Shown here: one piece after another, positions 46,389 to 64,000 of the stretch
Layout: each line of letters opens with the position of its first letter
How positions within the stretch are numbered: position 1 is the stretch's first letter
From: Chryseobacterium sp. StRB126
GTDB lineage: Bacteria > Bacteroidota > Bacteroidia > Flavobacteriales > Weeksellaceae
NCBI RefSeq assembly: GCF_000829375.1
Contig: NZ_AP014624.1
Coordinates: forward strand, 1,178,001 to 1,242,000
Length of the DNA: 64,000 bases
Reading direction: 5' to 3'
Notes under the pieces: model-generated
The model's database searches: none
What the model was told of the DNA's origin: nothing
Seen by the model: only the letters and a program-made list of their open reading frames with translations
Made by a program: the position numbers and the translations under genes

Positions 46389-46389
46389 T

Positions 46390-47424
46390 ATGAGAAATGT
46401 AGATTATATTATTGTAGGAGATGGATATGCTGGGCTTTTTTTAGCTCATCAGCTAATTAAAAATAACAAATCATTTGTCATTTTTTCCGAAGGAAGAAAA
46501 AGCGCTTCGCAGGTTTCTGCAGGGATTATCAATCCTGTGGTTCTTAAAAAGTTTACCACATTTTGGAAGGCTCAGGAGCAAATTGATTTTCTGAAGAACA
46601 GTTTGAAGGAGATAGAATCGTATACTGGTGAAAATTATTTGATTGATGCCTCTATTCATAGAATTTTTCATGATGAGAATGAACAGAAGCTTTGGCTTAA
46701 AAAATCCGGAAATGAAGAATTATCAAAGTTTTTGAATGAAAAATTTGAGTCTTTAAATGTGGTAAAAAATGATTTTCTCACAGGAAAGGTGAATCAGTCT
46801 GCCAGGTTGAATGTTAATGGATTTTTCATAGGTCTATTCAATTATTTCGAAAAAGGAGGTTTTCTTATCAGTGAAAAATTTGAATATGCTAAATTGAACC
46901 CTTCGGAAGGAATTTACAACGATTTTAATTTCAAAAATATTATTTTCTGTGAAGGAATGGGAGTAAAAAATAATCCCTACTTTTCAGATATCAATGTGAC
47001 CCCCAATAAAGGACACCACATAAAAGTTGAGCTTTCTCAACCTATCCCGGAAAATATAACCATTAAAAAGAAACACTTCCTTTTTCCAACGGGGAACAGA
47101 CTTTATTTCTATGGTGGAACTTATGACCGTGAGCAGCTTCACCACCACATTGATGAATCTGCAGTGAATCAGTTAGTCAATGGGTTGTCAGAATTCTACC
47201 CTTATGATTTTGAAGTGAAAGAAGTAAATTTTGGGTTTAGGCCTACGGTAAAAGATAGGAGACCGATTATTGGAAGACATGAAATTCATAGCAATTTATA
47301 TGTTTTCAATGGGCTGGGAGCAAGAGGGATTCTGAACGGTTGTTACTTTGCAAGAGATTTATTCCGTTTTATTGAAGAAGATATTCCATTGCATGAAGAA
47401 GTTTCACTGAATAGATTTAAGTAA
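46390..47424 (+). CDS. FAD-dependent oxidoreductase (DAO family)
   Basis: A 344-residue flavoprotein. ATG 46390 (MRNVDYIIVGDGYAGL) is chosen because an upstream in-frame start would lie in gldN and across a terminator. The Rossmann motif is IIVGDGYAGLFLAHQL (GxGxxG), followed by SAGIINPVVLKKF. The C-terminal FAD-contact region is GFRPTVKDRRPIIGRH and FNGLGARGILNG, typical of the glycine/D-amino-acid oxidase (DAO) superfamily. Substrate unknown. It starts right after the gldN terminator; its leader must therefore begin inside or after the hairpin, or it depends on readthrough. Confidence 0.88.
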   Translation: MRNVDYIIVGDGYAGLFLAHQLIKNNKSFVIFSEGRKSASQVSAGIINPVVLKKFTTFWKAQEQIDFLKNSLKEIESYTGENYLIDASIHRIFHDENEQKLWLKKSGNEELSKFLNEKFESLNVVKNDFLTGKVNQSARLNVNGFFIGLFNYFEKGGFLISEKFEYAKLNPSEGIYNDFNFKNIIFCEGMGVKNNPYFSDINVTPNKGHHIKVELSQPIPENITIKKKHFLFPTGNRLYFYGGTYDREQLHHHIDESAVNQLVNGLSEFYPYDFEVKEVNFGFRPTVKDRRPIIGRHEIHSNLYVFNGLGARGILNGCYFARDLFRFIEEDIPLHEEVSLNRFK

Positions 47425-47461
47425 TTTTCATCAGAATATAAATCTTAAAAGACTACAATGT

Positions 47462-47719
47462 ATGAATGATAACCTATTAGGAATCATTGCAGGAGTACTC
47501 ACTTCCATATACATGATTCCGCAGCTTATAAAAGTGGTTCGGGAGAAAAATGTGGAAGATATTTCTCTGCTTATGCTTTTGATCCTTATTTCCGGGTTAT
47601 CTTTATGGGTGTGGTATGGTTTTGTAAAAAATGAACTTCCTATTATTTTATCAAACTCATTTGCTGTTTTGGTGAATATCAGTCTTTTGATTTGCTATAT
47701 GATATATCACAAAAAGTAA
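47462..47719 (+). CDS. SemiSWEET sugar transporter
   Basis: An 85-residue protein with three membrane helices, the normal size for a SemiSWEET half-transporter that dimerises to carry sugars. The PQ motif is SIYMIPQLIKVVREKNVEDIS in the first helix-loop; LSLWVWYGFVKNELPIILSN forms the second helix and substrate Asn region, and the last helix is AVLVNISLLICYMIY. It lies 37 bases after the FAD oxidoreductase, probably cotranscribed, and is followed by a bidirectional terminator. Confidence 0.92.
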   Translation: MNDNLLGIIAGVLTSIYMIPQLIKVVREKNVEDISLLMLLILISGLSLWVWYGFVKNELPIILSNSFAVLVNISLLICYMIYHKK

Positions 47720-47751
47720 AAAAGACGTCCCCATAGAAGGACGTCTTTTTA
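47718..47751. terminator. Bidirectional terminator after SemiSWEET
   Basis: AAAGACGTCC / GGACGTCTTT arms with a CCATAGAA-type loop, flanked by A-run left and T-run right; serves the converging META-domain gene as well. Confidence 0.85.
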
Positions 47752-47773
47752 TATTAAATCTAATTATTTTTTC

Positions 47774-48205
47774 TTATTCAAGAACAAATTTAGCTAAAGG
47801 AGCCATTCTTGCTTTGTTCAATGTTAGCGTATTTCCGTTCACAGAATAGTTATCAGCTGCAAGGATAGCCTTTGTAAACTGATTTTCGATATCAAGATCT
47901 TCGCAAGCCATCATGGTAGACATTCCTTGGTTGAATTTGATTCTCATGATGTCCTGTTTAATCTCAAAAGTACCTCCTAATCCATTACATCCTGCATTAC
48001 CTTCATATCTCATCCCATTCATATTAAGTTTGAAATAAGGGTTGCTTTTTGGATTTTTTAACTTGATCGGCTGACCATTAAGTTCCGTTAATTTCCAGGT
48101 CTTTCCTGTAATATCTGTTGTTGGTTTCTGTGCAGTCTGTGTCTGGCAAGATACAAGAAATACAGCTAGGAAAAGAGCGGATAAATAGTAATACAAGCTT
48201 TTCAT
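47774..48205 (-). CDS. META-domain lipoprotein (HslJ-like)
   Basis: A 143-residue lipoprotein (lipobox FLVSC, Cys20). The META domain is evident from GKTWKLTELNGQPI, GNAGCNGLGGTFEI and STMMACEDLDIENQF, with NTLTLNKARMAPLAKFVLE at the end. META/HslJ proteins lie at the outer membrane and have been linked to stress and antibiotic tolerance; exact function is unknown. It follows the next-listed small lipoprotein by 36 bases on the same strand, so the two form an operon. Confidence 0.92.
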   Translation of the reverse strand: MKSLYYYLSALFLAVFLVSCQTQTAQKPTTDITGKTWKLTELNGQPIKLKNPKSNPYFKLNMNGMRYEGNAGCNGLGGTFEIKQDIMRIKFNQGMSTMMACEDLDIENQFTKAILAADNYSVNGNTLTLNKARMAPLAKFVLE

Positions 48206-48241
48206 AAATTTTAAATTTTAAATTTTCTGTTTGTACTTATG

Positions 48242-48634
48242 CTAATACGATGCCATTTTTGCAGGACCTGATTCTTTTTTTGCCTGTTTAAGATGGAAAA
48301 GTACCATATCTACATTCTTCTTTAAAAAAGTGATATTCCCTTTAATTTCAGAGTATTGATACTCCTCATTAGAGGCTGTGTAGTCTGGCAAAGCATCACT
48401 CTTTTTAAGGTCGTAAGTTTTACCGTTTAAATGTACCGTTGCTGTATTTTTAGAACGGTTGATAGTTACTTCTATTTTTTCTCCGTAGCTGTCAACATAT
48501 ACATTTTTCGAAATGTCATCTGTATTTTCAGGAGTAGCAGTGGTAACGGTTTCAGCATCTTTTCCGGGATGTTTACACGCTGTTGAGGAAAGAACGGCCA
48601 ATCCCAAAAGAACTGTTGGTAATAATTTTTTCAT
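48242..48634 (-). CDS. Small lipoprotein, possibly MliC-like
   Basis: A 130-residue lipoprotein (lipobox SSTAC, Cys20). The mature part has a pattern similar to the MliC lysozyme-inhibitor fold: VDSYGEKIEVTINRSKNTATVHLNGKTYDLKK, then TASNEEYQYSEIKGNITFLKKN. MliC proteins block c-type lysozyme in the periplasm, but the conserved SGxxY loop is not exact here (TASNEEYQY) and there are no disulfide Cys, so the assignment is weak. First gene of a probable two-gene operon with the META lipoprotein. Upstream, on its 5' side, is ~600 bases of non-coding DNA. Confidence 0.6.
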   Translation of the reverse strand: MKKLLPTVLLGLAVLSSTACKHPGKDAETVTTATPENTDDISKNVYVDSYGEKIEVTINRSKNTATVHLNGKTYDLKKSDALPDYTASNEEYQYSEIKGNITFLKKNVDMVLFHLKQAKKESGPAKMASY

Positions 48635-49230
48635 AGTGATAAGTGATTTTAAAGTGTTTCATGAATCATGATATTAATGCTATATAAAAATACAAATATT
48701 TTTAATAAATATGTGTTAATTTTTCATAAACTAACATGATGTTTTAAACGTTTTGGTTTTTTCCATTATTTTTAAAACATTCTTCAGAGAAACAAAAACT
48801 GATTATTTAGAGTAAGAAATTTGTGATTGAGAGGATTGGGGTTGTTTTTTTAACCGATTTATTCTCAGTTGGATAGAGGAAAGTTTTTTCATTGTTCATT
48901 TGTTGTTTAAATTTTCGGCAAAAATAATTCAAAATTAAGAGAATAACAATACGCTTGTATTAATAATTTGAAATCATGATAAAGTTTAGTTTTTTAGGTT
49001 GATATTTTCCCTGAATCGTAAGTATGTTCGAAATAAAATGTCGAAAAACAAAACATAGCTCAATGGCAAAAGAAAGAAACAAAAGGTATTATTGTATTGA
49101 TAAGAGGCTTTGTTAATTGATAAATGTCTGTTTTTCATGGTGTTTAATATTTAATAAGATTTTATATTCAGGTTATTTAAAGAAGCGTTAAATTTTGTTA
49201 ATCTATTATGATGATATAACAATCTAAGTG
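48635..49230. other. AT-rich intergenic region, no gene found
   Basis: About 596 bases separating divergent genes. Sequence is strongly AT-biased with scattered stop codons in all frames and no tRNA-like or terminator structure; it must hold promoters for both sides. The only motif I can support is the TACATTTG at its right edge. Confidence 0.6.
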
Positions 49231-49238
49231 TACATTTG
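49231..49238 (+). promoter_or_regulatory. -7 box of the small membrane protein/efflux region
   Basis: TACATTTG matches TAnnTTTG and ends 10 bases before ATG 49249, so the transcript would be nearly leaderless. The GTG at 49228 lies outside any such transcript and is rejected as a start. Confidence 0.5.
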
Positions 49239-49248
49239 CGACTTCAAA

Positions 49249-49635
49249 ATGAGAAACTTTATAGTATATTTTTTAACCGGTCTTTTTCTGCTCTTTGTAG
49301 TAGAAAGCAGATTGAATGTTAAAACACTGCGAAATGACTATTCCGGTCATGTTTCTCATCATCTCCCTAAAAGAGCCAATAAGCTGAATCAGACATTTGA
49401 AAAGCTTACTGTTCAGCAAATGGCCGATTCTGTAGATAATTCAACTTTAGAACTTGCCGAAAATGACTTTCAGCTGTCTGATGTATTTCAGGCTATCGTT
49501 GTTCTTGCCGGAGTTTTCAGTCTTGTCTATATTTTTGGATTAAAAAGCAACAAGCAGTTTAAACCGGATATTCATGGGTTTATTTGGGGGCTTACTGCTA
49601 AAAAATTCATTCTGATCCGTTCCATTAGAATTTAA
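49249..49635 (+). CDS. Hypothetical small membrane protein, 128 aa
   Basis: I do not recognise a family. From ATG 49249 it opens with a hydrophobic segment (NFIVYFLTGLFLLFVVES) that could be a signal anchor, has a polar middle (residues ~25-75), and a second hydrophobic stretch (VFQAIVVLAGVFSLVYIFGL). A basic C-terminus follows (KSNKQFKPD to RSIRI). The upstream -7 box decides the start. It precedes the RND efflux operon by 145 bases on the same strand; it could be a cotranscribed accessory, but that is inference. Confidence 0.65.
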   Translation: MRNFIVYFLTGLFLLFVVESRLNVKTLRNDYSGHVSHHLPKRANKLNQTFEKLTVQQMADSVDNSTLELAENDFQLSDVFQAIVVLAGVFSLVYIFGLKSNKQFKPDIHGFIWGLTAKKFILIRSIRI

Positions 49636-49780
49636 AATTTCATTTTTCCTAGTGAAGTTCTGCCTGATTTCAGGTGGGAATGCTTTTCGTTGTGTATGTT
49701 GGTAATCATCACTTCGTACTATTCTTTAATTACCATTTATTTCTATTCAAAACATTAACGATTTATAAAACTCTCGAATT

Positions 49781-50866
49781 ATGATAAAAAGAGTTGCCTC
49801 AGGTATTGCATTGAGTATCCTTTTACTGGCTGTAAGCTGCAATAAGAAAAAAGAGGAGAAAGAAGAAGTAACCACTTATCCGGTAACATCACCGGTAGTG
49901 ATGGACACTGTGATTAATAAGGAATATGTAGCTCAGATCCAGTCTGTAAAGAACATTGAAGTTCGGGCTCAGGAAAAAGGATTCCTTGAGAAAATTTTTG
50001 TTGATGAAGGTCAGTATGTACAGGCAGGGCAAACCCTGTTCCGTATCATGCCTAAACTTTATCAGGCAGAATTATTAAAGGCAAAAGCAGAGGTAGAACA
50101 GGCTTCTATTGAACTGAAAAATGCAAGTACATTAGCCGGAAACAATATCGTATCAAAGAATGAAAAGGCTATGGCTAAAGCTAAGTTGGATGCAGCCAAT
50201 GCAGAAATGAAATTAGCACAAATCCATTTGTCTTTTACCGATATTAAAGCTCCGTTTTCAGGGATTATCAATAGAATTCCTTTAAAGTTGGGTAGCTTGG
50301 TAGATGAAGGAGATTTGTTGACCTCTTTGTCAGACAATACAAGTATCTACACATATTTCAACGTTTCTGAACCGGAATATCTGAGCTATCAGACGCATGC
50401 TGCAGACAGAGGAAGCAATCAGGTATCTCTGATTACAGCAAATGGAGAAACGTATTCTCAAAAAGGAGAAATTCAGACTATTGAAGGGGAATTTGACAAT
50501 GAAACCGGAAATATTGCTTTCCGAGCAAAGTTTCCAAACCCGGATAAGCTTCTGAGAAACGGAGAAACCGGAAAAGTGCAAATGACAATGCCGGTTCACA
50601 ATGCTCTTATTATTCCTCAGAAAGCTACCTACGAAATTCAGGATCAGAAATATGTATTTGTTATTGATAAAAACGGTACAGCGAAATCCAGAAATATTAA
50701 AGTTGCTTATGAGCTTCCGGATCTGTATGTGGTAGGTTCGGGAATCTCAAAAGGAGATCAGATTCTTTTGGAAGGCGTTCAGAAGGTGAAGGATGATCAA
50801 AAAGTAAAAACAAAGTTCCAGGATCCTAAAAAGGTTCTTCAATCATTGAAATTAAAAGCAGAGTAA
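49781..50866 (+). CDS. RND efflux periplasmic adaptor (MFP)
   Basis: A 361-residue lipoprotein adaptor (lipobox LAVSC, Cys20) that links the inner-membrane pump to the outer-membrane channel. Visible parts: beta-barrel/lipoyl halves with VRAQEKGFLEKIFVDEGQYVQAGQTLFRI, a helical hairpin (residues ~105-150, ELLKAKAEVEQASIEL to AKLDAANAEMKLAQI), FTDIKAPFSGIINRIPLKLGSLVDEG, and RNGETGKVQMTMPVHNALIIPQKATYE. This is the AcrA/MexA type. 21 bases before the permease gene. Confidence 0.94.
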   Translation: MIKRVASGIALSILLLAVSCNKKKEEKEEVTTYPVTSPVVMDTVINKEYVAQIQSVKNIEVRAQEKGFLEKIFVDEGQYVQAGQTLFRIMPKLYQAELLKAKAEVEQASIELKNASTLAGNNIVSKNEKAMAKAKLDAANAEMKLAQIHLSFTDIKAPFSGIINRIPLKLGSLVDEGDLLTSLSDNTSIYTYFNVSEPEYLSYQTHAADRGSNQVSLITANGETYSQKGEIQTIEGEFDNETGNIAFRAKFPNPDKLLRNGETGKVQMTMPVHNALIIPQKATYEIQDQKYVFVIDKNGTAKSRNIKVAYELPDLYVVGSGISKGDQILLEGVQKVKDDQKVKTKFQDPKKVLQSLKLKAE

Positions 50867-50887
50867 TGGTCTCTAAAGTGAAGTAGT

Positions 50888-53800
50888 ATGTTTAAGAAAT
50901 TCATCCGCAGACCTGTTCTGTCTATTGTAATCTCATTGATTATTGTGTTTATGGGAATTCTGTCATTGGTAAAACTTCCGGTGACTCAGTTTCCCTCAAT
51001 TTCTCCACCTAAAGTAAATATTACCGCAGAATATCCCGGAGCTAACAACGAATTATTGATTAAATCTGTTGTTATTCCCTTGGAAAGAGGGTTAAATGGG
51101 GTTCCGGGTATGAAATATATGACCTCAGATGCCGGAAATGATGGAGAGGCATCCATTCAGGTGGTATTCGACCTGGGAACAGATCCCAATGTTGCAGCGG
51201 TAAACGTTCAGAACCGTGTATCTTCCGTGGTTAATAAATTACCTCCTCTGGTAGTTCGTGAAGGGGTGAAAATTACCCGTGAAGAACCAAATATGTTGAT
51301 GTACATTAACCTGTACAGTGACGATCCTAAAGCCGATCAGAAATTCCTGTTCAATTATGCAGATATTAACGTAATGTCTGAATTGAGAAGGGTAAGTGGA
51401 GTAGGCTTTGCTGATATCTTGGGAACCCGTGAATATGCAATGCGTATCTGGCTTAAGCCTGATAGGTTAACAGCTTATAACATTTCCGCAGATGAAGTGA
51501 TGGAGTCTTTAAATGACCAGAGTTTGGAAGCTTCTCCGGGAAAAACCGGGGAAAGTTCAGGGAAACGTTCTCAGTCATTTGAATATGTATTGAAATATCC
51601 AGGTCGTTTTAATAATGAAAAAGATTATGGAAATATTATCTTAAGGGCAAAACCAGATGGTGAATCGATCAGGTTAAAAGATGTTGCTGATATTGAATTC
51701 GGAAGTTCAATGTATGATATTTATTCTACATTGAATGGGAAGCCTTCTGCGGCAATTACCGTAAAACAGTCTTATGGATCTAATGCCAGCGACGTTATCA
51801 AAAACGTAAAAGCTTTAATGGCGGATCTTGAAAAGAATACTTTCCCTAAAGGAATGCATTATGATATCAGCTATGATGTTTCCAGATTCCTGGATGCTTC
51901 TATGGAAAAAGTAATCCATACCTTATTTGAAGCCTTTATACTGGTTGCTATTGTGGTATTTCTTTTCCTTGGAGACTGGCGTTCAACCTTAATTCCGGCA
52001 TTAGCGGTTCCGGTTTCATTGGTAGGAACATTTGCTGTGATGTCAGCATTTGGTATTACCTTGAATATGATCTCACTCTTTGCCCTTGTAATGGCCATTG
52101 GGGTCGTCGTTGATGATGCCATTGTAGTTATTGAAGCCGTCCATGCCAAGATGGAAGAAAAAAATCTTTCCCCTTTAAAAGCTACGGAAGAAGCCATGCA
52201 TGAGATCAGCGGGGCCATTATCGCAATTACTTTGGTAATGGCATCGGTATTCATTCCGATTGCGTTTATGTCTGGACCTGTAGGGGTATTTTATCGTCAA
52301 TTCTCGATTACCATGGCATCGTCCATTATTCTATCGGGGGTTGTGGCTTTAACTCTGACGCCAGCTTTATGTGCTTTAATCCTGAAAAATAACCACGGAA
52401 AAGCTAAGAAGAAGACTCCGATTACTGTTTTCCTTGATAAATTCAATAACCTGTTTACAAAAGGTGCTGGGAAATATGAAGGAATGCTGAAGAAAACAGT
52501 TACCAAAAAGGGAATCACATTGCCGTTATTATTGGCATTTTGTGCCTGTACATTCTTCCTGAGTAACTCTCTTCCATCAGGGTTTATTCCTGCTGAAGAC
52601 CAAGGGATGATTTATGCGATTATTCAGACTCCGCCTGGATCTACCTTGGAAAGAACCAATCAGATTGCTAAAGAGCTGTTGAGAGAATCTGAAGATGTTG
52701 ACGGAGTGAAATCTGTTTCTTCACTGGCGGGTTATGAGATCTTAACAGAGGGGACAGGATCCAACTCAGGAACCTGCTTGATCAACCTTAAAAGTTGGGA
52801 TGAACGTAAAGAATCTGCCGCTGAAATTATTGAAAAGCTTGAAGAAAAAGCCAAAAATATTCCGGGAGCCAATATTGAGTTTTTCCAACCACCATCTATT
52901 CCTGGTTATGGAGCTGCCGGAGGTTTTGAACTTCGTTTACTGGATAAAGCAGGAAGTGGTGATTATCATAAAATGGAGCAGGTGAGTAATGATTTTGTGA
53001 AGGAGCTGAAGAAACGCCCGGAACTGGGTTCTGCATTTACCTTCTATTCTGCGAGTTTCCCTCAGTATATGCTTCGTGTGGATAATGATCTTGCAGAGCA
53101 GAAAGGGGTAACTATTGCAAAGGCGATGGATAACCTGTCAACCCTTATCGGTTCAAACTATGAAACCAGTTTTATCCGGTTTGACAGGCCTTATAAGGTG
53201 ATTGTTCAGGCAGGGCCTCAATATCGGGCATTGCCAACGGATCTTTTAAAATTGTATGTGAAGAATGATAAGGATCAGATGGTGCCGTATTCAGACTTTA
53301 TGCATCTTGAAAAAGTATATGGACTGTCTGAGATTACAAGACATAATATGTACAATTCTGCAGAGGTGAGTGGAACTCCGGCACCGGGATACAGTAGCGG
53401 GCAGGCTATTAAAGCCATTCAGGAAGTTGCGGATAAAACCCTTCCTAGAGGGTTTGGTATTGATTGGGCTGGGATTTCTAAAGATGAAGTGAGCCGTGGA
53501 AATGAAGCGGTATTTATCTTCCTGGTGTGTCTTGGATTTGTATACCTGATCCTTGCTGCCCAGTATGAAAGCTTTATTCTTCCGTTACCGGTGATCTTAT
53601 CTCTTCCTACTGGTATTTTTGGGGCATTTTTATGCTTAAAATTGTTAGGATTGGAAAACAATATTTATGCTCAGGTAGCGATGGTAATGCTTATTGGGCT
53701 TTTAGGAAAGAATGCTGTATTGATTGTTGAATTTGCGGTACAGAAGAAAGCAGAAGAGGGAATTTCTGTGGCAAAAGCTGCTATTGAAGGTGCTGCCATT

Positions 53801-54079
53801 CGTTTCCGTCCGATCCTGATGACCTCATTTGCCTTTATTGCCGGATTGATTCCGTTAGTGATTGCAACAGGTCCCGGAGCCATTGGAAACCGTACCATTG
53901 GAACAGCTGCAGCTGGAGGGATGTTGATAGGAACTGTTTTCGGGCTGATGATTATTCCAGGATTGTATTACATTTTCGGAACCATTGCTGAAAAGTCGAG
54001 GCTGGCAAGATATGAAGAAGAAAATCCTTTAACAGAACAAACTGAACCTTATGAACACGATGGAAAATTCGAAGACTAA
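50888..54079 (+). CDS. RND efflux permease (HAE1 family)
   Basis: A 1063-residue inner-membrane pump, normal AcrB-type length, exporting hydrophobic or amphiphilic compounds using the proton gradient. N-terminal FIRRPVLSIVISLIIVFMGILSLVKLPVTQFPSI is the standard opening. The TM4 proton-relay aspartates are in IGVVVDDAIVVIEAV. Two repeats of six TM segments and two large periplasmic loops are visible, with PAEDQGMIYAIIQTPPGSTLERT starting the second and GLLGKNAVLIVEFA and RFRPILMTSFAFIAGLIPL near the end. Substrate range cannot be read from sequence. It overlaps the outer-membrane gene. Confidence 0.96.
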   Translation: MFKKFIRRPVLSIVISLIIVFMGILSLVKLPVTQFPSISPPKVNITAEYPGANNELLIKSVVIPLERGLNGVPGMKYMTSDAGNDGEASIQVVFDLGTDPNVAAVNVQNRVSSVVNKLPPLVVREGVKITREEPNMLMYINLYSDDPKADQKFLFNYADINVMSELRRVSGVGFADILGTREYAMRIWLKPDRLTAYNISADEVMESLNDQSLEASPGKTGESSGKRSQSFEYVLKYPGRFNNEKDYGNIILRAKPDGESIRLKDVADIEFGSSMYDIYSTLNGKPSAAITVKQSYGSNASDVIKNVKALMADLEKNTFPKGMHYDISYDVSRFLDASMEKVIHTLFEAFILVAIVVFLFLGDWRSTLIPALAVPVSLVGTFAVMSAFGITLNMISLFALVMAIGVVVDDAIVVIEAVHAKMEEKNLSPLKATEEAMHEISGAIIAITLVMASVFIPIAFMSGPVGVFYRQFSITMASSIILSGVVALTLTPALCALILKNNHGKAKKKTPITVFLDKFNNLFTKGAGKYEGMLKKTVTKKGITLPLLLAFCACTFFLSNSLPSGFIPAEDQGMIYAIIQTPPGSTLERTNQIAKELLRESEDVDGVKSVSSLAGYEILTEGTGSNSGTCLINLKSWDERKESAAEIIEKLEEKAKNIPGANIEFFQPPSIPGYGAAGGFELRLLDKAGSGDYHKMEQVSNDFVKELKKRPELGSAFTFYSASFPQYMLRVDNDLAEQKGVTIAKAMDNLSTLIGSNYETSFIRFDRPYKVIVQAGPQYRALPTDLLKLYVKNDKDQMVPYSDFMHLEKVYGLSEITRHNMYNSAEVSGTPAPGYSSGQAIKAIQEVADKTLPRGFGIDWAGISKDEVSRGNEAVFIFLVCLGFVYLILAAQYESFILPLPVILSLPTGIFGAFLCLKLLGLENNIYAQVAMVMLIGLLGKNAVLIVEFAVQKKAEEGISVAKAAIEGAAIRFRPILMTSFAFIAGLIPLVIATGPGAIGNRTIGTAAAGGMLIGTVFGLMIIPGLYYIFGTIAEKSRLARYEEENPLTEQTEPYEHDGKFED

Positions 54080-55508
54080 AAATATAATAACAGCCATTGC
54101 CTTATCTCTTGTGTTAGCAAGTTGTAAGGCGCCAATGGCGACCGTCATAAAAGACGAGGTAAAAGAAAATATACCTCAGAACTTCAATCAGGAAGAGCAG
54201 CAGGATGCAAATAACAACAGCGGAACAACTCCCTGGAGACAGTTCTTCACGGATCCGAATCTGGTAAGCCTTATTGAAACTGCTTTAAAGAACAATCAGG
54301 AGCTAATGATTACTCTTCAGGAAATTGAAATAGCCAAGAGCGGAGTTTTAGCTAAAAAAGGAAGACTTAGCCCTACTGTTTCTGCCGGAATAGGAGCAGG
54401 ACTGAAAAAAGCAGGCCGTTATACGAGTGAAGGTGCCGGAGATGCCAGTACAGAAATGGAGGCGGGTAAAGCAATACCAGATCCTCTTGGGAACTTTGAA
54501 GGTGGTTTGATGGCTAATTGGGAAATTGATATCTGGAAAAAGCTGAGAACAGAAAAAGAGTCTGCAGTGGCTCATTATCTTTCTACGGTAGAAGGGAAAA
54601 ACTTTGTATTGTCTAATCTTATTGAGGAAGTTGCGGATAATTACTATGAATTGTTGGCTCTGGATAATCAATTGGATATTATTCAACAGTATATCAAGCT
54701 TCAGCAAAGAGCATTGGAAATTTCCAAAATTCAGAAAGAAGCTGCAGCTGCAACGGAATTGGCGGTGAAGAAATTTGAAGCTGAATTGGCAAAATCCAAA
54801 GCTTCAGAATATACCATTCGTCAGCAGATTACGGAAAAAGAAAATGAGATCAATGCTCTGTTAGGAAGATATCCACAACCGATTGTCAGAACAAAGGAAA
54901 ACTTTATGTCAACCATTCCGCCAACGGTGTATACGGGAATTCCGTCACAATTATTGGCCAATCGTCCTGATATCAAGCAGGCAGAATTGGAATTGAAAGC
55001 ATCAAAGCTGGATGTGGAGGCTGCAAGAAAAGAATTTTATCCATCATTGGAAATTTCGGCTACCTTAGGATTGGAAGCTTTTAAACCTTCTTATCTGGTG
55101 AAAATGCCGGAGTCTATTGCTTATAATCTTGTAGGTGAACTGGCTGGACCATTGATTAATAAAAGTGCGATTAAAGCTAATTTTCAGACTGCGGATGCCA
55201 AACAGGTACAAGCATTATATGAATACGATAAAACCATTTTAAATGCTTATCTGGATGTAGCCAACCTGATGTCGAAGATTAAAAATATAGACCAGTATTA
55301 TCAATTGAAATCTCAGGAAACAAAAGCCCTGGATCAGTCTATTGATATTGCCAACCAGTTGTTCAGAAATTCCAGAGCAGATTATCTTGAGGTTCTTCTG
55401 AATCAAAGAGATGCTTTGGATGCTAAAATGGAGCTGATAGAAGCGAAACAAAAACAGTTAAGTACTGTTGTAGATATCTATAAGAGTCTTGGCGGTGGCT
55501 GGAAATAA
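54051..55508 (+). CDS. RND efflux outer-membrane channel (TolC/NodT family lipoprotein)
   Basis: A 485-residue outer-membrane factor. N-terminal lipobox LVLASC with Cys25 (from the first Met; Cys22 if the ATG at 54060 is used). WRQFFTDPNLVSLIETALKNNQEL starts the first OEP repeat and LLANRPDIKQAELELKASKLDVEAARKEFYPSL the second; long helices make up the periplasmic tunnel. Completes the adaptor-permease-channel operon; the start overlaps the permease end by up to 29 bases. Downstream terminator at 55550. Confidence 0.93.
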   Translation: MNTMENSKTKNIITAIALSLVLASCKAPMATVIKDEVKENIPQNFNQEEQQDANNNSGTTPWRQFFTDPNLVSLIETALKNNQELMITLQEIEIAKSGVLAKKGRLSPTVSAGIGAGLKKAGRYTSEGAGDASTEMEAGKAIPDPLGNFEGGLMANWEIDIWKKLRTEKESAVAHYLSTVEGKNFVLSNLIEEVADNYYELLALDNQLDIIQQYIKLQQRALEISKIQKEAAAATELAVKKFEAELAKSKASEYTIRQQITEKENEINALLGRYPQPIVRTKENFMSTIPPTVYTGIPSQLLANRPDIKQAELELKASKLDVEAARKEFYPSLEISATLGLEAFKPSYLVKMPESIAYNLVGELAGPLINKSAIKANFQTADAKQVQALYEYDKTILNAYLDVANLMSKIKNIDQYYQLKSQETKALDQSIDIANQLFRNSRADYLEVLLNQRDALDAKMELIEAKQKQLSTVVDIYKSLGGGWK

Positions 55509-55524
55509 AGAAACATCATAATTC

Positions 55525-55605
55525 AATCAATAAACAGTTAATGTTTTGAGGGTTGGCTCTTCGGAGCTGGCCCTTTTTTGTTTTTAATACGTCGAGTTCT
55601 GTCGC
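55525..55605 (+). repeat. 81-bp repeat, copy 1 (terminator with UUCG hairpin plus conserved tail)
   Basis: 76 of 81 bases match copy 2 at 57525-57605, exactly 2000 bases away. It contains a rho-independent terminator: GGGTTGGCTC / GAGCTGGCCC arms with a TTCG tetraloop at 55550-55573, then TTTTTT. The conservation continues ~30 bases past the T-run (TTAATACGTCGAGTTCTGTCGC region), so more than the hairpin is shared. Sits after the efflux operon. Confidence 0.85.
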
Positions 55606-55648
55606 TTTGATGGGATAGCTTTGTCCTGAATCATTAAAATAATTAATT

Positions 55649-57505
55649 ATGACATTAAATTCAATTGTAGACTTAAAAACTAAAAATGGAAATACGGATG
55701 CCGATTTCTATATTGTAAGAGGGTATCATGCTGCCAATGATGGTGGTGGTGGTGAATTTTATTGGGATGGGGCATATTCTGGTACCGGAAATAATGGGAC
55801 TATTATAACTGTTGGGGGGATAGGTGCCTGGAGAAGATCTTACGAAGGACCAGTAAATTTATTATGGTTTGGAGCAAAAGGGGATGATATTGCTGATGAT
55901 ACTATAGCTTATAAGTTGGCAACAGATTACTGTGGAGAACAGAAGAAATTTCTCTTAGTACCAGAAGGGAAAGTGTTTAGAATTAGTCAAAAAATAGAAG
56001 CTAAGTGTAGTATAACTGGGACAGGGACGTTAAGAACAACCAATGCAGGAGTTCTCATTGTAGTTAAACTTAAAGATGATGCCATTGTTGAAAATATTAC
56101 GGTGACAGGTGCTGGCACTGGAGACAGTATTATTGGGGGAGGATTGTATGTGGAGTCTAGTGAAAATTGTCTTATTAGGAATGTAAAAGTAAATAGTGTT
56201 CAGGGAGCTGGAATTACAGCATTGAAATCCTCTTATGCTCATATTGATCATTGTAAAACAACTAAAACGAGAGGACAAAATGGTGATGGAATTATTGTGA
56301 TGTCAGCTTTTGGTTGTAAAATCACAAATAACTATTGTTTGGACTACCAGAGAATTGGGATTGTATGTGATAGGTACGCTACCCAAAGTGGGGAAGTTTA
56401 TATTGCCGGAAATATTTGTAAAGAAGGGCATAATGCTATTGGAGGAGAATTTAACGCAGGAATTTGGGTGGAGAAAACGCATGGTGCCCAAATTGTGAAT
56501 AACTATGTAGAAAATCATGATAAGAAAGGAATTATTGTGGCTCCCGCTATTGAAGGAGATTTAACTTATACCTACTTGGTTCATGGAAATACGATTAAGA
56601 ATTCTCGTGAAGGAATTAATATTACGGCTGGGAGAAATGCTAAAGTCATAGTAAGTGATAATTTCCTTTTCAATTACAGCAAAGGCATTGAAGTGGGGGA
56701 TGCGGAGACTGTTATTCTTTCAAATATTTACTTTGGTGAAAGAGTAGAGCAGCCTATAAAAGATAGTTTAGTAAGTATTGCAAATGGTATACAAAAGCCC
56801 ACAAATGTTATTATTCAAGATTGTATTAATGATACTTCTTTTGATGCTGGGCTTTCTCCAATCTCTTTTCCTGACGTTTATGGGATGCAGTGTAGTGTAA
56901 CAGTAAGAGATTGCAAAGGAAACTGGGCCTATAGAAATTTTTCGGCAGCCACTATTTTGGGGTCTATTAAGTACTTCAATACTTTATTTGATCTTAATAG
57001 CCTTGGGTATGCACCTAAAACACTCCTTTATCTTACCAATACAGATCATGAACAGTTATTTGATAGCTGTGAAATTCGTTTACCTGTAGATATGGATATC
57101 CGAAGCCAGTCTCCAACGGTTATTTTCAGAAATTGTCATGTGGAGTCTTCGGGCCCAATGAATCTTCTTATTGGAACGTATGGCTCACAGAAAGTGATTA
57201 TAGATAACAGTACATTTAAAAATCTTACCTTCCTGAATCCAAAATCGAATTTTGAAATGGTAATCAAAAATAGTGATATCAATAATTATAGTGCCAATGG
57301 ATTTTTAGATACACCTTTTGGGCAGCTGGGGGTTTTGGAAGTATTAAATAGTAAATTTATTTCAGCAAATTCTGCGGTTCCTTTTAATCTACCATTAAAT
57401 GTTAACTATTCTTTGTTTAAAGGAAATATTTTTAAAGCTTCAGCTTTGTTTTCAAATATTACTACTGTTCCTAAAATTAATGATAGTAATTCTTTATTAC
57501 AATAA
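55649..57505 (+). CDS. Right-handed beta-helix protein resembling phage tailspike / pectate-lyase-like
   Basis: A 618-residue protein without signal peptide or membrane segment. The N-terminus has the tailspike-type pattern GYHAANDGGGGEFYWD then GIGAWRRSYEGPVNLLWFGAKGDDIADDT, where the WFGAKGDDxxDDT motif starts the pectate_lyase_3-like beta-helix. The rest is a repeated short-strand solenoid with Asn, Gly and Val-rich turns (for example GGLYVESSENCLIRNVKV, AQIVNNYVENHDKKGIIV, NTIKNSREGINITAG). Family members are polysaccharide-binding or -cleaving. The lack of a signal and of other phage genes is unusual: it may be a released phage-derived protein or be exported some other way. Flanked by two 81-bp repeats. 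Confidence 0.82.
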   Translation: MTLNSIVDLKTKNGNTDADFYIVRGYHAANDGGGGEFYWDGAYSGTGNNGTIITVGGIGAWRRSYEGPVNLLWFGAKGDDIADDTIAYKLATDYCGEQKKFLLVPEGKVFRISQKIEAKCSITGTGTLRTTNAGVLIVVKLKDDAIVENITVTGAGTGDSIIGGGLYVESSENCLIRNVKVNSVQGAGITALKSSYAHIDHCKTTKTRGQNGDGIIVMSAFGCKITNNYCLDYQRIGIVCDRYATQSGEVYIAGNICKEGHNAIGGEFNAGIWVEKTHGAQIVNNYVENHDKKGIIVAPAIEGDLTYTYLVHGNTIKNSREGINITAGRNAKVIVSDNFLFNYSKGIEVGDAETVILSNIYFGERVEQPIKDSLVSIANGIQKPTNVIIQDCINDTSFDAGLSPISFPDVYGMQCSVTVRDCKGNWAYRNFSAATILGSIKYFNTLFDLNSLGYAPKTLLYLTNTDHEQLFDSCEIRLPVDMDIRSQSPTVIFRNCHVESSGPMNLLIGTYGSQKVIIDNSTFKNLTFLNPKSNFEMVIKNSDINNYSANGFLDTPFGQLGVLEVLNSKFISANSAVPFNLPLNVNYSLFKGNIFKASALFSNITTVPKINDSNSLLQ

Positions 57506-57524
57506 GAGAAAGTATAAGCATAAT

Positions 57525-57605
57525 AATCAATAAACAGTTAATTTTTTGAAGGTTAGCTCTTCGGAGCTGGCCCTTTTTTGTTGTTAATACGTCGAGTTTT
57601 GTCGC
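57525..57605 (+). repeat. 81-bp repeat, copy 2 (terminator with UUCG hairpin plus conserved tail)
   Basis: Matches copy 1 at 76 of 81 bases. The hairpin base pairs are largely kept: one G-T pair of copy 1 is A-T here. The end of the beta-helix gene is 20 bases upstream, so it also terminates that gene. Confidence 0.85.
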
Positions 57606-57705
57606 AGTGCTGTAGTAGATTTGTAGGATCAATGAAGGGTCATAGAAGCACAATAAAACAGCCATGTAGTTGAAAATAAATCATATTAAATCACATTAAT
57701 ATGAT

Positions 57706-57733
57706 TTGTGTGAATGAAAAAAAACTAAATTTG
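57706..57733 (+). promoter_or_regulatory. Promoter of the T9SS type A / YD-repeat run
   Basis: TTG at 57706-57708 and TAAATTTG at 57726-57733 with a 17-base spacer, 47 bases before the ATG at 57781 region of the next gene. Confidence 0.6.
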
Positions 57734-57777
57734 CGCAAAATTTGAAAAGCTAATCATTAAACTCAAATAACACGGGA

Positions 57778-59397
57778 ATGAAAAAGATTTATCTCAGTGC
57801 ATGTACTGTATGCACCATTCTTGGGCTTTCTGCCCAGGAAGTTCTGTGGCAAAAAGACATAAAATCCTCTACTCAGGATTTTCTAAGCCAGGTCACTACC
57901 ACCATCGATGAGCAGTATCTCATTACAGGAAGCTCTATACAGAGCGACAAACTCCAACAAGGAAACAAACAGAATAACGGTTATGATTTCCATCTGATTA
58001 AACTGAACCAGCAGGGAGAAGAAGCCTGGGAAAAGTATTTCTCAGGAAATAACCATGATTACTTATCCGCAACGGTAACCACTCAGGATGGTGGATTTTT
58101 ATTGGCCGGAACCTCTTACTCAGGAAAAGGACTGGAGAAGAAAGACGATTCTAAAGGAGGATCAGATATCTGGCTGATCAGGATCAATGAATTCGGGGAT
58201 GAATTATGGCAGAAAACGTTGGGAACCTCTTCTGATGAAGAAGCCAGAGCAGTCATTCAAAGTACAGACTTGGGCTTTTTTGTTGCCGGAAATGTACAAG
58301 GCTCTTCCCAAGGCTATGGATCCAAAGATGTCTGGATCACCCGACTGGATAAAGACGGAAAGGAAATTTCTCAATTGATCTTAGGCGGAAAAGGGTTGGA
58401 CGAAGTAGAGAAAATGATTCCAACAAAAGACGGTGGAGCCTTATTGGGAATTTACTCAAGGAGTTCCGAGGTCCGTGTTTCGGGATCCGGAGATAGCCCT
58501 CGTGGAACTGCATCATCTTCTGAACCTCGCACTTCGAATCCCGCATCCCGCACCGCAAAATCTACAGAAAACTTAGGTGAAGGTGACTACTGGATCATCA
58601 AACTGGACAAAACCGGAAAAGTAGAATGGGAAAAGAACTTTGGCGGGAAAGGAGATGATCATATCAGAACACTGGCTTTAACTGCAAACGGTTATATCAT
58701 CGGTGGCGAATCCAGATCCGAAAGATCCGGAAACAAAACCGTAGGCATTGAAGAAGGTACAGACCTTTGGTTGATTGCTCTTAATGAAAGAGGCGATGAG
58801 CAGTGGCAGAAGTCCTACAATTTTAAAAACCGTGATATTCTGATGGGAATGAGTGTCATTCATTCTTCAGATGACAAATCTTCAAAAGGAATTCTGTTAG
58901 GTGGTTACACTCAGGCCGAAGGAAGAATAGAAAAAGATGATGAGACTTTCTGGATGCTGTATCTGGATGGCAACGGAAATGAACAGTGGCGAAAACATGT
59001 AGCAGGAGAGTCCAGACAAAAAGAAGAAAGGCTTTCAGATTTGAAACTGAACCGTGATGGCTCGATTGTTTTAGCGGGAACCAGTGCCAAAGAATTAGGC
59101 AAGGAGAACTGGAAGATTGTAAAGCTGGGAGATAAACAAGTGAATGATCTGATAGAAAAATATGACATTAAGATTTATCCAAACCCGGTATCAGATTATG
59201 CCTATGTAGAAATCGGCTTTGACTTTAAAGAAGCTGATATTATGCTGTATGATATGAGTGGAAGACAGCTTCAGAACTTTAAGACGAAGAATAGGGTGAC
59301 TAAGATGAATACCCAGGCTTTGATACAGGGAGCTTATCTGGTAACGGTAAAAATTGATAACAACAAAACAGCCAATGCAAAGCTGATTAAGAAATAA
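57778..59397 (+). CDS. T9SS type A sorting domain protein with repeated propeller-like strands
   Basis: A 539-residue secreted protein: signal peptide (residues 1-19, ending LGLSA), then at least six repeats of the form DGGFLLAGTS..GSDIWLIRINEFGDELWQKTLG, typical of delta-60/kelch-like propeller proteins of Bacteroidota. The C-terminus is a type A sorting domain (YDIKIYPNPVSDYAYVEI, IMLYDMSGRQLQNF, GAYLVTVKID). A ~34-residue, Ser/Arg-rich, GC-rich insert sits between two blades (around residues 228-262) and looks foreign. First of three consecutive genes; the YD-repeat gene follows by 13 bases. Confidence 0.9.
   Translation: MKKIYLSACTVCTILGLSAQEVLWQKDIKSSTQDFLSQVTTTIDEQYLITGSSIQSDKLQQGNKQNNGYDFHLIKLNQQGEEAWEKYFSGNNHDYLSATVTTQDGGFLLAGTSYSGKGLEKKDDSKGGSDIWLIRINEFGDELWQKTLGTSSDEEARAVIQSTDLGFFVAGNVQGSSQGYGSKDVWITRLDKDGKEISQLILGGKGLDEVEKMIPTKDGGALLGIYSRSSEVRVSGSGDSPRGTASSSEPRTSNPASRTAKSTENLGEGDYWIIKLDKTGKVEWEKNFGGKGDDHIRTLALTANGYIIGGESRSERSGNKTVGIEEGTDLWLIALNERGDEQWQKSYNFKNRDILMGMSVIHSSDDKSSKGILLGGYTQAEGRIEKDDETFWMLYLDGNGNEQWRKHVAGESRQKEERLSDLKLNRDGSIVLAGTSAKELGKENWKIVKLGDKQVNDLIEKYDIKIYPNPVSDYAYVEIGFDFKEADIMLYDMSGRQLQNFKTKNRVTKMNTQALIQGAYLVTVKIDNNKTANAKLIKK
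58461..58560 (+). other. GC-rich in-frame insertion within the T9SS type A gene
   Basis: This 100-base stretch is 57% G+C by count, against clearly AT-rich flanks. It encodes a Ser/Arg/Pro-rich linker (EVRVSGSGDSPRGTASSSEP onward) that interrupts the regular propeller repeat. Read on the minus strand it has a repeated GGGATxCGG/GAAGTGCGAGG texture seen in short dispersed repeats of this group; this comparison is from memory. Confidence 0.55.
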
Positions 59398-59410
59398 AAA
59401 AATAGTAATC

Positions 59411-62400
59411 ATGAAAAAAATAATACTATTATTACTAGTGGGAATGCTTTGTAAAGCACAGCTTACTATTGGTGATGAACAAAATAAACAGATCGTTCCG
59501 TTACCAGCCAGTGCGGAGTCTTATAGTCTTTCCAAAGTGGAAGCTATACCTATGGATTACTTCAGAGGAAAGGCCAATATCAATATCCCAATTTATACGA
59601 TAAGCGTTAATGGAATTAGTATTCCGATTTCTCTGGCCTATAATACAGGTGGAATAAAATTAAACGAAGTTGCTACTACCGTAGGATTAGGTTGGTCGCT
59701 TAGTATCCCCGGCACTATTTCTCATAATGTTGTAGGTTTAGATGATCTGGATGTTCCGTTTTTTAAAAAAAATATAGCTGATTATGGAGCCTATAGTGGG
59801 ACTATTGATGAGTCATATATGAATAATCAGCTGCGGGCTGATCTTGAAAGTATATATAATGGTAATTATGATACCCAAAAAGATATTTTTGATTACAATT
59901 TACCTACTGCATCAGGTTCTTTTCTGATGAAAGAGAATAATCAGACCTTTTTGATTCCCAATGATGATGTGGTTATCATAAAAAATAATGATAAGTTTTA
60001 TGTAAAAGATACGCAGGGTACTGAATATTGGATATCTCCCAGAAACGGGGTTATGCCTGGTAGTATAGGAGGACCCACAGTGACACATAAAACGTTATAT
60101 AATCTTGATGAACTTAAAATTAATAATAAATCAGTTTTATTTTATTATAATAAAACCCATGGTTATGGAGAAAGAAATATTAACCAGATTGCTAATTTTA
60201 AAATAAGTCCTAAATTAATCGGGAATTATGAACAGTTGGTTCCGCTTCCCAAATATGAAAAAACAGAAACATCTACTTCCTTCTACGAATCCTTGATTAG
60301 TAAAATCGGCTTTGATAATGGGAATGTTAACTTTTTATATTCCAATGACACTAATGCAGCATTTACTGATGGATCATCATACAGAAAAGATCTGAGTGGA
60401 GGCAATGGAGTGGCACTTCGCAGAGTAATAGTGACCAATAAAGCAGGGGTTATTGTAAAGGATATCAGTCTTAATTATAGTTATTTTGAAACAGATAATG
60501 TGAACAAAACCTATGAAGATTATAGGCTTAAACTCTTGAGTGTTCGTGATAATTTGCAAAACACAGAGTATTCATTTGAATATAACGAGCAGTACAAAAT
60601 GCCTAAACGAAGCAGCAGTAACGATGATTACTGGGGCTATATCAATAGTATTCATAACGGAGAAACAACGAATATACCATATAACCTTTTTGATGATAGT
60701 ATACCTACGACAGAATTAAATGCTGTTGCTAGAAGAGATAGAGAACCTAACGAAGATTATGCTGTTTTAGGGACCCTAACCTCTATAAAATATCCTACAG
60801 GAGCAAAGAAAAATTTTTATTATGAACTTCCATACAATACAGCAAGGAAATCTACAGGATATACTTGGGGGTATTTAGGAATAGGAGGAATGGAAACTGA
60901 TTCATCAGAAGAAGATTTTTATGAAAAAAAAATCTTGCCGATTACTTCTGCGCACATACAGCAAATAGTCAATCTGGGAATTGATGCTTTTCCTGACAAA
61001 CTTGAAGTAACATTTAGTAATGCTTGTTTAAATGCCAGTAATCCGGGAGACAATCAGACTATAGCAGAAACCCAGTGCACGGGAACAGCATCATATCCCC
61101 CAAATTATTTTTCTGAGTGGCGTTCAAAAACTGTAGACTGGAATATATCACCAGGCAAAAATCTTGTACTATATCTGCAAAAAATAGGTAACTGTAAATG
61201 TATGATTGGCGGAGCAATTAGGTATAAATATCCTACTTATATTGATGAAACTAAAAAATATGGTGGACCTCGCATCCGGAAAATAGAAGATATTGATGCT
61301 AATAATGTTTCAAATGTCTATGAATATGCTTACGGAAACTATAACAACGAAGTTTTTGTTCCTGACTTTCAGTTGAAACAAAAATATAATTTTTCATCTT
61401 TTATTAAAAGACAGGTAAGAGAATTTGCCAGTATTGGTGATGGCACACAGACTGGATATACTTTTGAAAGATATTATCGTCTTCACAACTCCAGCCAGGC
61501 TAATACCAGCTATGGAAGTTCGGAGGTCATTAATTATCCTTCTGTAGTTGAAATTACAGGAAAAGGGAAAATTGTAAGAGAATATGAAATTTCTGACAGT
61601 TCAAATTATGTGTATAATAAATGGAAAGGCGGAAGGCTTAAAAGAGAAATTTATCTGAATACAGCCAATGATACACTAAAAATAGTAAAAAATACTTATG
61701 AGATTAACACGCTGAAAAATGGTTTATCCGAGTTTACAACAAGTAATCCGAAAATAGCTGCTTTTTCTACCGATTTTAGCATTACAAAAGGAACCGCCAT
61801 TGTTCTGGATGTTCCAGTGGAGATTTATGCTGTTGACCAGAAAATGTCCATGATTGAATCTGCAAAAGTAGAGCATGTAGCAACCACAACAAAAGAATTT
61901 TTTGGAAATAAATCTGTTGTAACCAAAGTGTTAAATAATTATTGGGATACTGATATTAATAAACCTTTTAATGTAAGAAGTACTGAAAATATTTTACCCT
62001 CCGGTGAAAGTATAAAAACAGAGTATCAGTATGCGCATCAGACCGGGAATCAGCTTTTAATCGACAAAAATATGATTGCAACGCCATTAGAGACAGAAAC
62101 AAAACAGACTATCAATGGAACAACCAATATATTGTCAAAATCCAAAACAGTTTTTCCTACAGCACTTCCAACTCCTCAAACAGGAGATTTGGTACTTCCT
62201 ATGTCAGTATTATCTTACGATCTCCAGAATCCTGCCACAGTGGCTAATGAAGTAAAATATGATAAGTATGACCCTAAGGGAAATATTCAGCAGTATACTA
62301 CAAAAGATGGAGTTTCAACAGTAATTATCTGGGGCTATAATGGGACCCAGCCAATTGCCAAGATTGAAAATGCAAAACTGGAGGGCATTGGACAATCATT

Positions 62401-62683
62401 CATAGACAGTATTGTAAATGCCTCTAATACAGATGCCGCAGCAGAAAGTAATAATGATGAAACCAATTTGTTAAATGCTTTTAAAATTTTTAGAGACAAT
62501 CTATACGGCTATCAGATCACCACCTACAGTTATGACCCTTTAATTGGAGTAAGAAGTATTACTCCACCATCCGGAATCAGGGAAGTATATCTTTATGACG
62601 ATGCTGGCAGACTTAAAGAAGTCAGAGAAAATAACCAGACTGGAAAACTATTAAAAGAATTTAACTACCATTACAAAAACTAA
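59411..62683 (+). CDS. YD-repeat / RHS-type secreted protein, first gene of pair
   Basis: A 1090-residue exported protein. Signal peptide residues 1-16 (ending LCKA). The N-terminal 120 residues ([45 protein letters not shown]) match the opening domain of flavobacterial RHS-like proteins. Long stretches of YD-type strands follow ([23 protein letters not shown] [48 protein letters not shown]). It ends in YD repeats without a T9SS sorting tail or a toxin-like domain. The next gene starts 4 bases after its stop, so the two are translationally linked. Confidence 0.82.
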
Positions 62684-62687
62684 GACG

Positions 62688-64000
62688 ATGAAAAAAATAC
62701 TCATTCCCGTAGGCATATTGCTGATAAGTCATTCAGCCTATGCCCAGCTCACTCAGGGAGAAAACTATATTCAATCCAAAACTTATCTGGATTATAATGG
62801 AACTACACCTTCCAAAACCTCAGAAACCGTTCAATATTTTGACGGTTTGGGAAGACCCAAGCAAGTAGTTAATGTAAAAGCATCTCCGCTGGGACGAGAT
62901 GTAGCCACGCATATTGAATATGATAGCCTTGGAAGACAGGTTAAAGATTATCTACCTGTTCCTCAGGGAGGAACTTTAAATGGAGCCCTAATTCCCAACC
63001 CATTATCTAATGCAGCCAATACCGCTTATGGTTCAGAAAAGATCTATTCAGAGAAAGTATTAGAAAACTCTCCGTTGAACAGACTTCAACAGCAGATTCA
63101 GGTAGGTAATGACTGGAGTACTAAACCCGTAAAATTTGATTATGAAGCCAATGTTGATGGTGAAGTAAAAAAATATGTTGCCACTTTTGATTATTCAACC
63201 TTTAAATCCGAGATTAATGTATCAGGCAATTATGGAGGTGGTCAGTTATATAAAAATACCGTTACAGATGAAGATGGAAACAAAACCATTGAATTTAAAA
63301 ATGGGAAAGGCCAGGTTTTACTGGTAAGAAAAGAAATAAATGCAACAGAAAAAGCTGATACTTATTATGTTTATAATAATTACGATCAGCTGGCTTTTGT
63401 AATTCCACCTTTAGCCTCTGTCTTGCCGGCAATAGATACCACTACATTAGATACCCTTTGTTATCAGTATAAATATGATGGGAAAAATCGCCTGGTAGAA
63501 AAGAAACTCCCGGGCAAAGGCTGGGAATTAATGGTATATGATAAATCAGACAGGTTAGTTCTCTCTCAGGATGCCAATCTCAGTGTCTCCAATAAATGGC
63601 TCATTACCAAGTATGACAAGTTGGGGAGAATTGCTTATACCGGTTTTTTAACTGGCGGTGATAGAGCTGGAAGGCAGAATCAGATCAAGGATCTGGTGAT
63701 TACTGAAGATAGAAGCACCACAGGATTTACCCGAAATGGCATCACAGTGTACTATACTGATAGTGCCTTTGTTGGAGAAATCCCTACCATTTTAAGTATC
63801 AATTATTACGATACCTATCCGGGGTATAACTTTAACCCATCATTTCCATCATCTATTCAGGGTGAAGAAACTTTAAAAGAAGCGGTATCTGCTGAAGGAA
63901 AAAGCACAAAAGGGCTTCCAGTGATGAGTTTGATAAAGAACATTGAAGATGATAACTGGACAAAGAATTATACCTATTACGATACCAAAGGAAGAGTGAT
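62688..64000 (+). CDS. DUF6443-type RHS/YD protein, 3' end beyond window
   Basis: An open frame of 437 codons running off the right edge. It starts with a signal peptide ([20 protein letters not shown]), then the DUF6443 opening: [46 protein letters not shown], and [17 protein letters not shown]. Further YD-like strands follow ([27 protein letters not shown]). DUF6443 proteins of this size normally continue into an RHS-associated core domain and a variable C-terminal region, which lies outside the window and cannot be judged here. It is 4 bases downstream of the partner YD-repeat gene. Confidence 0.85.

Follow-up and report, generated by a model that had tools for sequence, protein, structure and literature searches.

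In the window, that is, the whole stretch of 64,000 nucleotides analysed (C1:1178001-1242000 of the source genome, Chryseobacterium sp. StRB126, G000), a tailspike-like gene lies between two copies of an 81-bp direct repeat. We consider it likely that each copy is a terminator joined to a promoter under a DriD-like WYL-domain activator, and that the tailspike gene is a late member of the regulon of this activator. The repeat copies occupy positions 55525-55605 and 57525-57605, and 76 of the 81 bases are identical; compared over 100 bases, the copies are 88% identical. Alignment and folding bore out the preliminary description of this pair (76 of 81 bases, starts 2000 apart, a UUCG hairpin and a T-run). 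The spacing of exactly 2000 bases is true in the source genome, but it is incidental and without meaning, because the terminator spacing is 1991 and 1997 in two relatives. As had been proposed, a BLASTn-type search with the 81-bp unit was performed on the genome, a single contig of 5,503,743 bases: there were two full copies and one third match, which covered the last 21 bases only. This partial match elsewhere showed that the repeat is composed of two parts with separate histories. A dispersed repeat family was rejected, because only two full copies exist and the last 20 bases recur as promoters. An Rfam scan of the window gave three tRNAs and no match at the repeat. A cluster of tRNA-Lys, tRNA-Leu and tRNA-Lys genes lies at 35627-35939, and both Lys genes have the same anticodon. 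As judged from sequence, each repeat is one terminator-promoter unit, made of the efflux-operon terminator and a predicted promoter. The features are listed in Table 1.

Table 1. Features of the tailspike locus and the candidate regulator gene
Feature	Position	Strand	Evidence or remark
tolC-like outer membrane efflux gene, last of RND efflux operon, site anchor	54051..55508	+	PF02321 6e-37
Terminator hairpin and T-run, copy 1 (efflux operon terminator)	55548..55579	+	fold -19.0 kcal/mol, z -4.71; covariation
Operator copy 1, AATACGTC-N7-GTCGC	55586..55605	+	pattern match, 1 mismatch, 0 expected in window; DriD-like half-sites
-7 box TAGCTTTG of predicted tailspike promoter	55616..55623	+	10 bases behind operator copy 1
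Tailspike-like right-handed beta-helix protein, 618 aa, the insertion	55649..57505	+	domain, PHROG, model
Terminator hairpin and T-run, copy 2	57548..57579	+	fold -14.6 kcal/mol, z -3.02; one broken pair
Operator copy 2, AATACGTC-N7-GTCGC	57586..57605	+	pattern match
-7 box TAGATTTG of predicted propeller promoter (ancestral promoter)	57616..57623	+	
T9SS-sorted propeller-like protein, first gene of neighbouring operon, multi-copy	57778..59397	+	PF18962 1.6e-10
YD-repeat-like protein (named by eye) behind propeller	59411..62683	+	ORF
WYL-domain regulator gene (outside window)	G000:C1:402965-403882		operator at 402914

Both hairpin copies possess a UUCG loop and a T-run. In nine hairpin rows, which were chosen by hand and are not a full sample of the genus, 6 of the 11 pairs were changed on both sides and 99.0% of the cells were paired; the sole unpaired cell belongs to copy 2. 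These compensatory changes among the nine chosen rows agree with the earlier suggestion that the RNA structure is under selection. The earlier statement that a G-T to A-T change keeps the hairpin was correct in part: the G-U to A-U change does preserve a pair, but a second difference, which had been overlooked, is a G to A change at base 26 of the unit that breaks a pair and leaves an A-C mismatch. The element possesses the properties of an intrinsic terminator, namely a stable G+C-rich hairpin, a T-run and, in the nine chosen rows, compensatory change. The tolC ortholog is present in 166 of 173 genus genomes, and 68 of these 166 loci were surveyed, mostly from the closest genomes and with some loci cut by contig ends. 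When the terminator motif AAACAGTTAATGTTTT was searched behind tolC with at most 2 mismatches, one copy was found in 56 of the 68 loci, none in 9 and two in 3. The loci with two motifs are exactly the three tailspike genomes. From the position of the motif behind tolC and from the covarying pairs, we conclude that the element terminates the efflux operon and is maintained by selection within the genus.

The preliminary description treated the rest of the repeat as about 30 further bases behind the terminator. It missed a predicted regulated promoter, which is common to a genome-wide regulon and to the neighbouring propeller gene. The architecture of this promoter is ATACGWC-N7-GWCGY followed, exactly 10 bases on, by TAnnTTTG, which is the -7 box of this phylum. 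The full pattern occurred twice in the window, as compared with 0 expected, and both times at the repeats. At 3 mismatches and with at least 4 of 6 box bases, the window gave three sites, of which two are the repeats, and the shuffled sequence gave 0.5 per shuffle. A search of seven genomes for the operator pattern AATACGTCGAGTTCTGTCGC, in which up to 3 mismatches were allowed, found 3-13 sites per genome, as compared with 0 or 1 for the reversed pattern. The spacing was then examined at 33 distinct sites, fetched by the operator alone with no downstream requirement: at 32 of them, a box with at least 5 of the 6 fixed bases follows at a distance of exactly 10 bases, and at 25 sites the box is perfect. 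A further, weaker box stands at 38 in three of the 32, and boxes at any other spacing were absent. The consensus of 137 non-redundant sites was AATACGWCAAGTTYTGTCGCTT-N8-TAnnTTTG, with AATACGWC-N7-GTCGYT as its operator part and the box at 10 in 131 of the 137 sites. It should be mentioned that, for some loci of this larger set, the search pattern already contained the box, and therefore the 33-site set is the unbiased spacing test. At the normal spacing of a -33 box, the site consensus has no TTG. The predicted promoter architecture and its recurrence are thus established at the sequence level.

The half-sites, the N7 spacer, the fixed distance (N10 at 32 of 33 sites) and the absence of TTG at -33 led us to propose a DriD-like activator. 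DriD is a DNA-damage WYL activator of Caulobacter crescentus (PMC12340889, PMC4211646). The consensus published for DriD is ATACGAC(X)7GTCGTAT; the DriD sites cover part of the -35 region at one distance from the -10 box, and the -35 boxes are poor (PMC12340889). The site consensus described here matches the published ATACGAC-N7-GTCGTAT in half-sites and in N7 spacing, and the operator likewise covers a poor -33 element (-35 in DriD) at a single distance from the -7 box (-10 in DriD).

The candidate regulator contains WYL (2.3e-13) and WCX (1.9e-8) domains, and an operator stands 50-90 bases in front of its gene in all eight genomes listed. Within the genus, a close ortholog, with a best E of at most 6.3e-145, occurs together with two or more sites in 147 of 149 genomes; the remaining two, G073 and G084, have neither the ortholog (best E 2.5e-31 and 3.8e-15) nor any site. 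Of the 147 genomes outside the genus, 22 possess the ortholog at E below 1e-100, a cut-off chosen once the gap from 1e-64, approximately the next best value, to 1e-111 was known. At least three sites were found in 15 of these 22 genomes and in 0 of the 125 others (Fisher 1.4e-15), and at least two sites in 19 of 22 as against 5 of 125 (Fisher 1.6e-16); these values overstate independence because the genomes are related. The exceptions are G304, which has the ortholog and no site, and 24 of the 125 ortholog-less genomes, which have one or two sites. By co-occurrence and by its own upstream site, the WYL gene is tied to the predicted promoters. An alternative sigma factor would also give a fixed spacing to the -7 box, and a tie made of co-occurrence plus an upstream site might arise if the motif were the element of such a factor or of another activator and the WYL gene a target that travels with the set. 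We regard this explanation as quite improbable, because the motif forms a nearly symmetric dyad whose half-sites and N7 spacer are those of a WYL activator, and because two members of the genus are without both the ortholog and the sites.

By sequence profile, the regulator protein matched PafBC (5e-15) and DriD (4.9e-11) over the WYL/WCX part only (positions 149-299); the helix-turn-helix gave no DriD match by sequence profile. In a Foldseek search with the structural model (pLDDT 77.6, pTM 0.43), DriD was the best match, with a low TM of 0.33, PafBC was next, and BrxR and CapW followed. Thus, the regulator resembles DriD as a WYL plus WCX protein with DriD as the best fold match, and the DriD-type layout of helix-turn-helix, WYL and WCX is supported by the domain matches and the model, but the sequence match differs from full DriD likeness in that the helix-turn-helix is unmatched. 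BrxR and CapW, lower in this list, are described as WYL repressors at inverted repeats or palindromes of promoters. The WYL protein might therefore be a repressor of this type, and a damage- or phage-derived ligand would derepress an anti-phage or suicide arsenal. This is unlikely: the described BrxR and CapW sites lie over or behind the -10 box, whereas here the centre of the operator falls near -33, at a single distance from the -7 box. In addition, the consensus leaves no -33 box, at the normal spacing, for unaided polymerase, and BrxR and CapW come below both DriD and PafBC among the regulator matches. As a DriD-like activator, the WYL-domain protein would bind the predicted operator in the -33 region, where a dimer would grip the half-sites ACGWC and GWCGY flanking the seat of sigma region 4, and it would aid RNA polymerase at promoters where a good -7 box stands without a -33 box. 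Operator binding and activation are what we infer from the sites and the domains.

Several differences from known systems should be described. DriD is reported not to activate its own promoter, whereas here a site precedes the regulator gene. Moreover, the targets given for DriD are didA, bapE, recJ and dnaG; the predicted targets here are tailspike-, toxin- and lysis-like genes. PafBC is a mycobacterial heterodimer WYL activator with an asymmetric -26 element (PMC11804915). The candidate regulator resembles PafBC, which works with the housekeeping polymerase, in the type of activator, in a special element in the -35 region and in the profile match given above; unlike the heterodimer, it is encoded by one gene and has a near-symmetric operator.

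The survey of 296 family genomes, 149 of them from the genus, used a pattern with the box included and at most 1 mismatch. Promoter sites were found in 192 of the 296 genomes and control counts were 0; in the genus, 147 of 149 genomes have 2-30 sites. When up to 3 mismatches were allowed in twelve genomes, there were 15-24 sites as compared with 1-5 in the control. In the source genome, the first genes behind the sites include the tailspike gene of the window, two further tailspike-like genes (L175, L176), an M15 endolysin-like peptidase, a patatin and a DUF285 protein with a T9SS tail. One site precedes an LRR protein gene, which is followed by tail-fibre-like, 1244-aa and Tle1-phospholipase-like genes. 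Sites also precede four propeller operons, including that of the window, several genes of no named family and the WYL regulator. In seven other genomes, 40 regulon loci were hand-picked from the listed sites, with cluster sites left out: 7 of the 40 are tailspike-like (with Pfam or PHROG support for those tested), and the remainder include M15, DinB, HNH-like, Tox-MPTase4, DUF285-like and propeller genes. The relatives of the 1244-aa protein (best 120 of 210) are mostly unnamed Chryseobacterium proteins, and two of those listed have UniRef names of TcA-C-terminal and MACPF type.

Genome-wide operator sets are also known from the non-canonical LexA regulons of the same phylum, for which dinB and umuC would be possible targets (PMC8565304). 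The Bacteroidetes LexA-like boxes are GGA-N5-TCC and CTAA-N5-TTAG, and TTAC-N5-GTAA in Elizabethkingia (PMC8565304). The site consensus described here differs from all three. Furthermore, no site was found upstream of recA within 3 mismatches in any of 8 genomes; there were only 4-mismatch matches without a box. A plain SOS regulon was therefore rejected. DinB was dropped as a regulon target, as its gene follows the operator in G020, whereas this is not so at the corresponding site of the source genome. The umuC gene was also dropped: a palindrome about 100 bp upstream is conserved, and there is no good box toward umuC. At one umuC-like gene (L098 8929-10350), the best -7 box of the upstream palindrome faces away. 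A PF01726 search of the source genome gave no match; this is weak evidence, because LexA of this phylum is non-canonical and a Bacteroides control genome was likewise without a match. A trigger by single-stranded DNA or DNA damage is plausible, but solely by analogy, because recA is without a site in all eight genomes and dinB and umuC are weak cases.

The site behind tolC was compared among relatives. The tailspike gene is present in 3 of 173 genus genomes, always at this site, and a close homolog is recorded from C. gallinarum. In 35 of the 68 surveyed loci, by ORF reading, the propeller gene is next behind tolC; by tblastn, it was found in 38 loci, with fragments included and the three tailspike loci left out. 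The proposed mapping in relatives thus gave the efflux operon with a single block, often followed by the propeller gene, and the empty site with a single block is a sequence-level observation. The tailspike gene is accordingly a rare addition, as had been supposed. The idea that different genes occupy the site was supported: a gene for a 1110-aa protein stands behind the operator in 3 of the 68 loci. Most of the loci with neither this gene nor the propeller gene have other genes and no operator. The 1110-aa protein (one copy searched) has no Pfam or PHROG match. This gene lies at L118 640-3972, and G064 and G010 have it at the corresponding site. In G007, the tolC ortholog (G007:C1:1491664-1493043) matched over only 460 of 485 residues and contains an in-frame TAG.

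In the tailspike genomes, copy 1 continues into the short tailspike leader, and copy 2 starts after the tailspike stop codon and continues into the ancestral propeller leader. Identity along the locus among the three genomes is a mosaic, and behind position 59450 it drops to 24-51%, so that the YD region differs between them. The tailspike gene would have been inserted ahead of the propeller/YD operon with duplication of the terminator-operator block, after which each gene would keep a terminator in front and the same switch. Recombination at the terminator or within the block would fit as the route of insertion. Direct repeats flanking a gene, an empty site with one copy and a protein resembling phage tailspikes are also what a self-mobile cassette or a prophage remnant integrated at the terminator would give. 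Such an origin is very improbable. Both halves of the repeat occur in relatives without the gene, that is, they are not confined to the element; the repeat is 81-100 bp of a native operon end and not a short target duplication; and no recombinase or virion gene was recognised by eye among the ORFs of 46000-64000. A plasmid or phage origin was also dropped, because there was no plasmid match and only one weak match to a phage (Aeromonas phage PS, at 26.9% across 38% of the query). The modular cassette that the preliminary description proposed, formed by duplication or replacement, was thus supported in part: the gene is a rare insertion, and the empty sites have a single block. Neither of the two outcomes named as speaking against it was seen.

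The propeller family has 8 matches in the source genome and, with E 0.001 as the limit, matches in 172 of the 173 genus genomes. Paralogs lie at G000:C1:2832899, 3592118, 3965843, 386402 and 4695334, in addition to window 57778-62683. At three paralogs of the source genome, the upstream homology begins at the operator, and differing YD-type genes follow.

The tailspike gene product matches a right-handed beta-helix, and its N-terminus matches tail-fibre/EPS-depolymerase PHROGs. The structural model (pLDDT 72.7, weak C-terminus) is likewise a right-handed beta-helix, and its top Foldseek matches in the PDB are phage tailspike depolymerases (CBA120 TSP2; 6w4q, 5w6p). The earlier assignment as a phage-tailspike-type protein, for which structure prediction had been proposed as a check, was therefore supported. 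The likeness to phage tailspikes is limited, in that the TM values of the 20 best matches are low (0.26-0.35), the model is weak at the C-terminus, and the predicted promoter of the gene recurs before cellular genes. The earlier description had noted no other phage genes nearby, and no virion gene was recognised among the ORFs of the region given above; other tail-like genes lie elsewhere in the regulon. In contrast, the gene does not look specially foreign by GC3, because the value of the YD gene (0.26) is close to that of the tailspike gene (0.24; tolC, 0.35). Among the three genomes, the ends of the tailspike gene are about 89-100% identical and parts of the middle (window 55850-56900) 68-77% identical. 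The divergent middle resembles a receptor- or substrate-binding region that is diversifying.

Seven distant homologs were fetched by protein similarity alone, and signal peptides were judged by eye. The motif is upstream of all five genes without a signal peptide, and within 4 mismatches it is absent from both genes with one. The five motifs have 1, 1, 1, 2 and 3 mismatches, and the boxes, in the same order, are GATTTTTG, GATATTTG, TACTTTTG, TATCTTCG and TACTTTTG; thus, 3 of the 5 boxes are imperfect and 2 of the 5 motifs have 2-3 mismatches. The tailspike protein of the window also has no visible signal peptide. Because a secretion signal is not visible and the regulon contains lysis-like genes, release at cell lysis would be the simplest route, and we infer that the protein may then act on the surface glycans of neighbours.

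A literature search of open-licence PMC papers found no paper on this regulon. Our broader proposal is tentative. Chryseobacterium and some neighbouring genera might possess a LexA-independent, single-stranded-DNA-activated WYL regulon, which would provide a dispersed and exchangeable arsenal after genome damage. The arsenal would comprise tailspikes without secretion signals, YD-repeat/polymorphic-toxin-like proteins, phospholipases and an endolysin-like enzyme; genes would join it behind a copy of the operator, and release might be colicin- or tailocin-like without a known particle. How WYL activators such as DriD and PafBC work has been established in a proteobacterium and in mycobacteria. 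With an operator like that of DriD at up to 30 predicted promoters per genome, LexA-independent control driven by single-stranded DNA would become testable in a further phylum, Bacteroidota. Furthermore, orphan tailspike-like genes gain a common predicted switch and, with it, a handle on their purpose. The rule of operator, N10 and TAnnTTTG predicts further members. In several genomes (L216, L221, L100), a protein of 93-96 aa is encoded behind the operator, with the box GATNTTTG instead of TANNTTTG.
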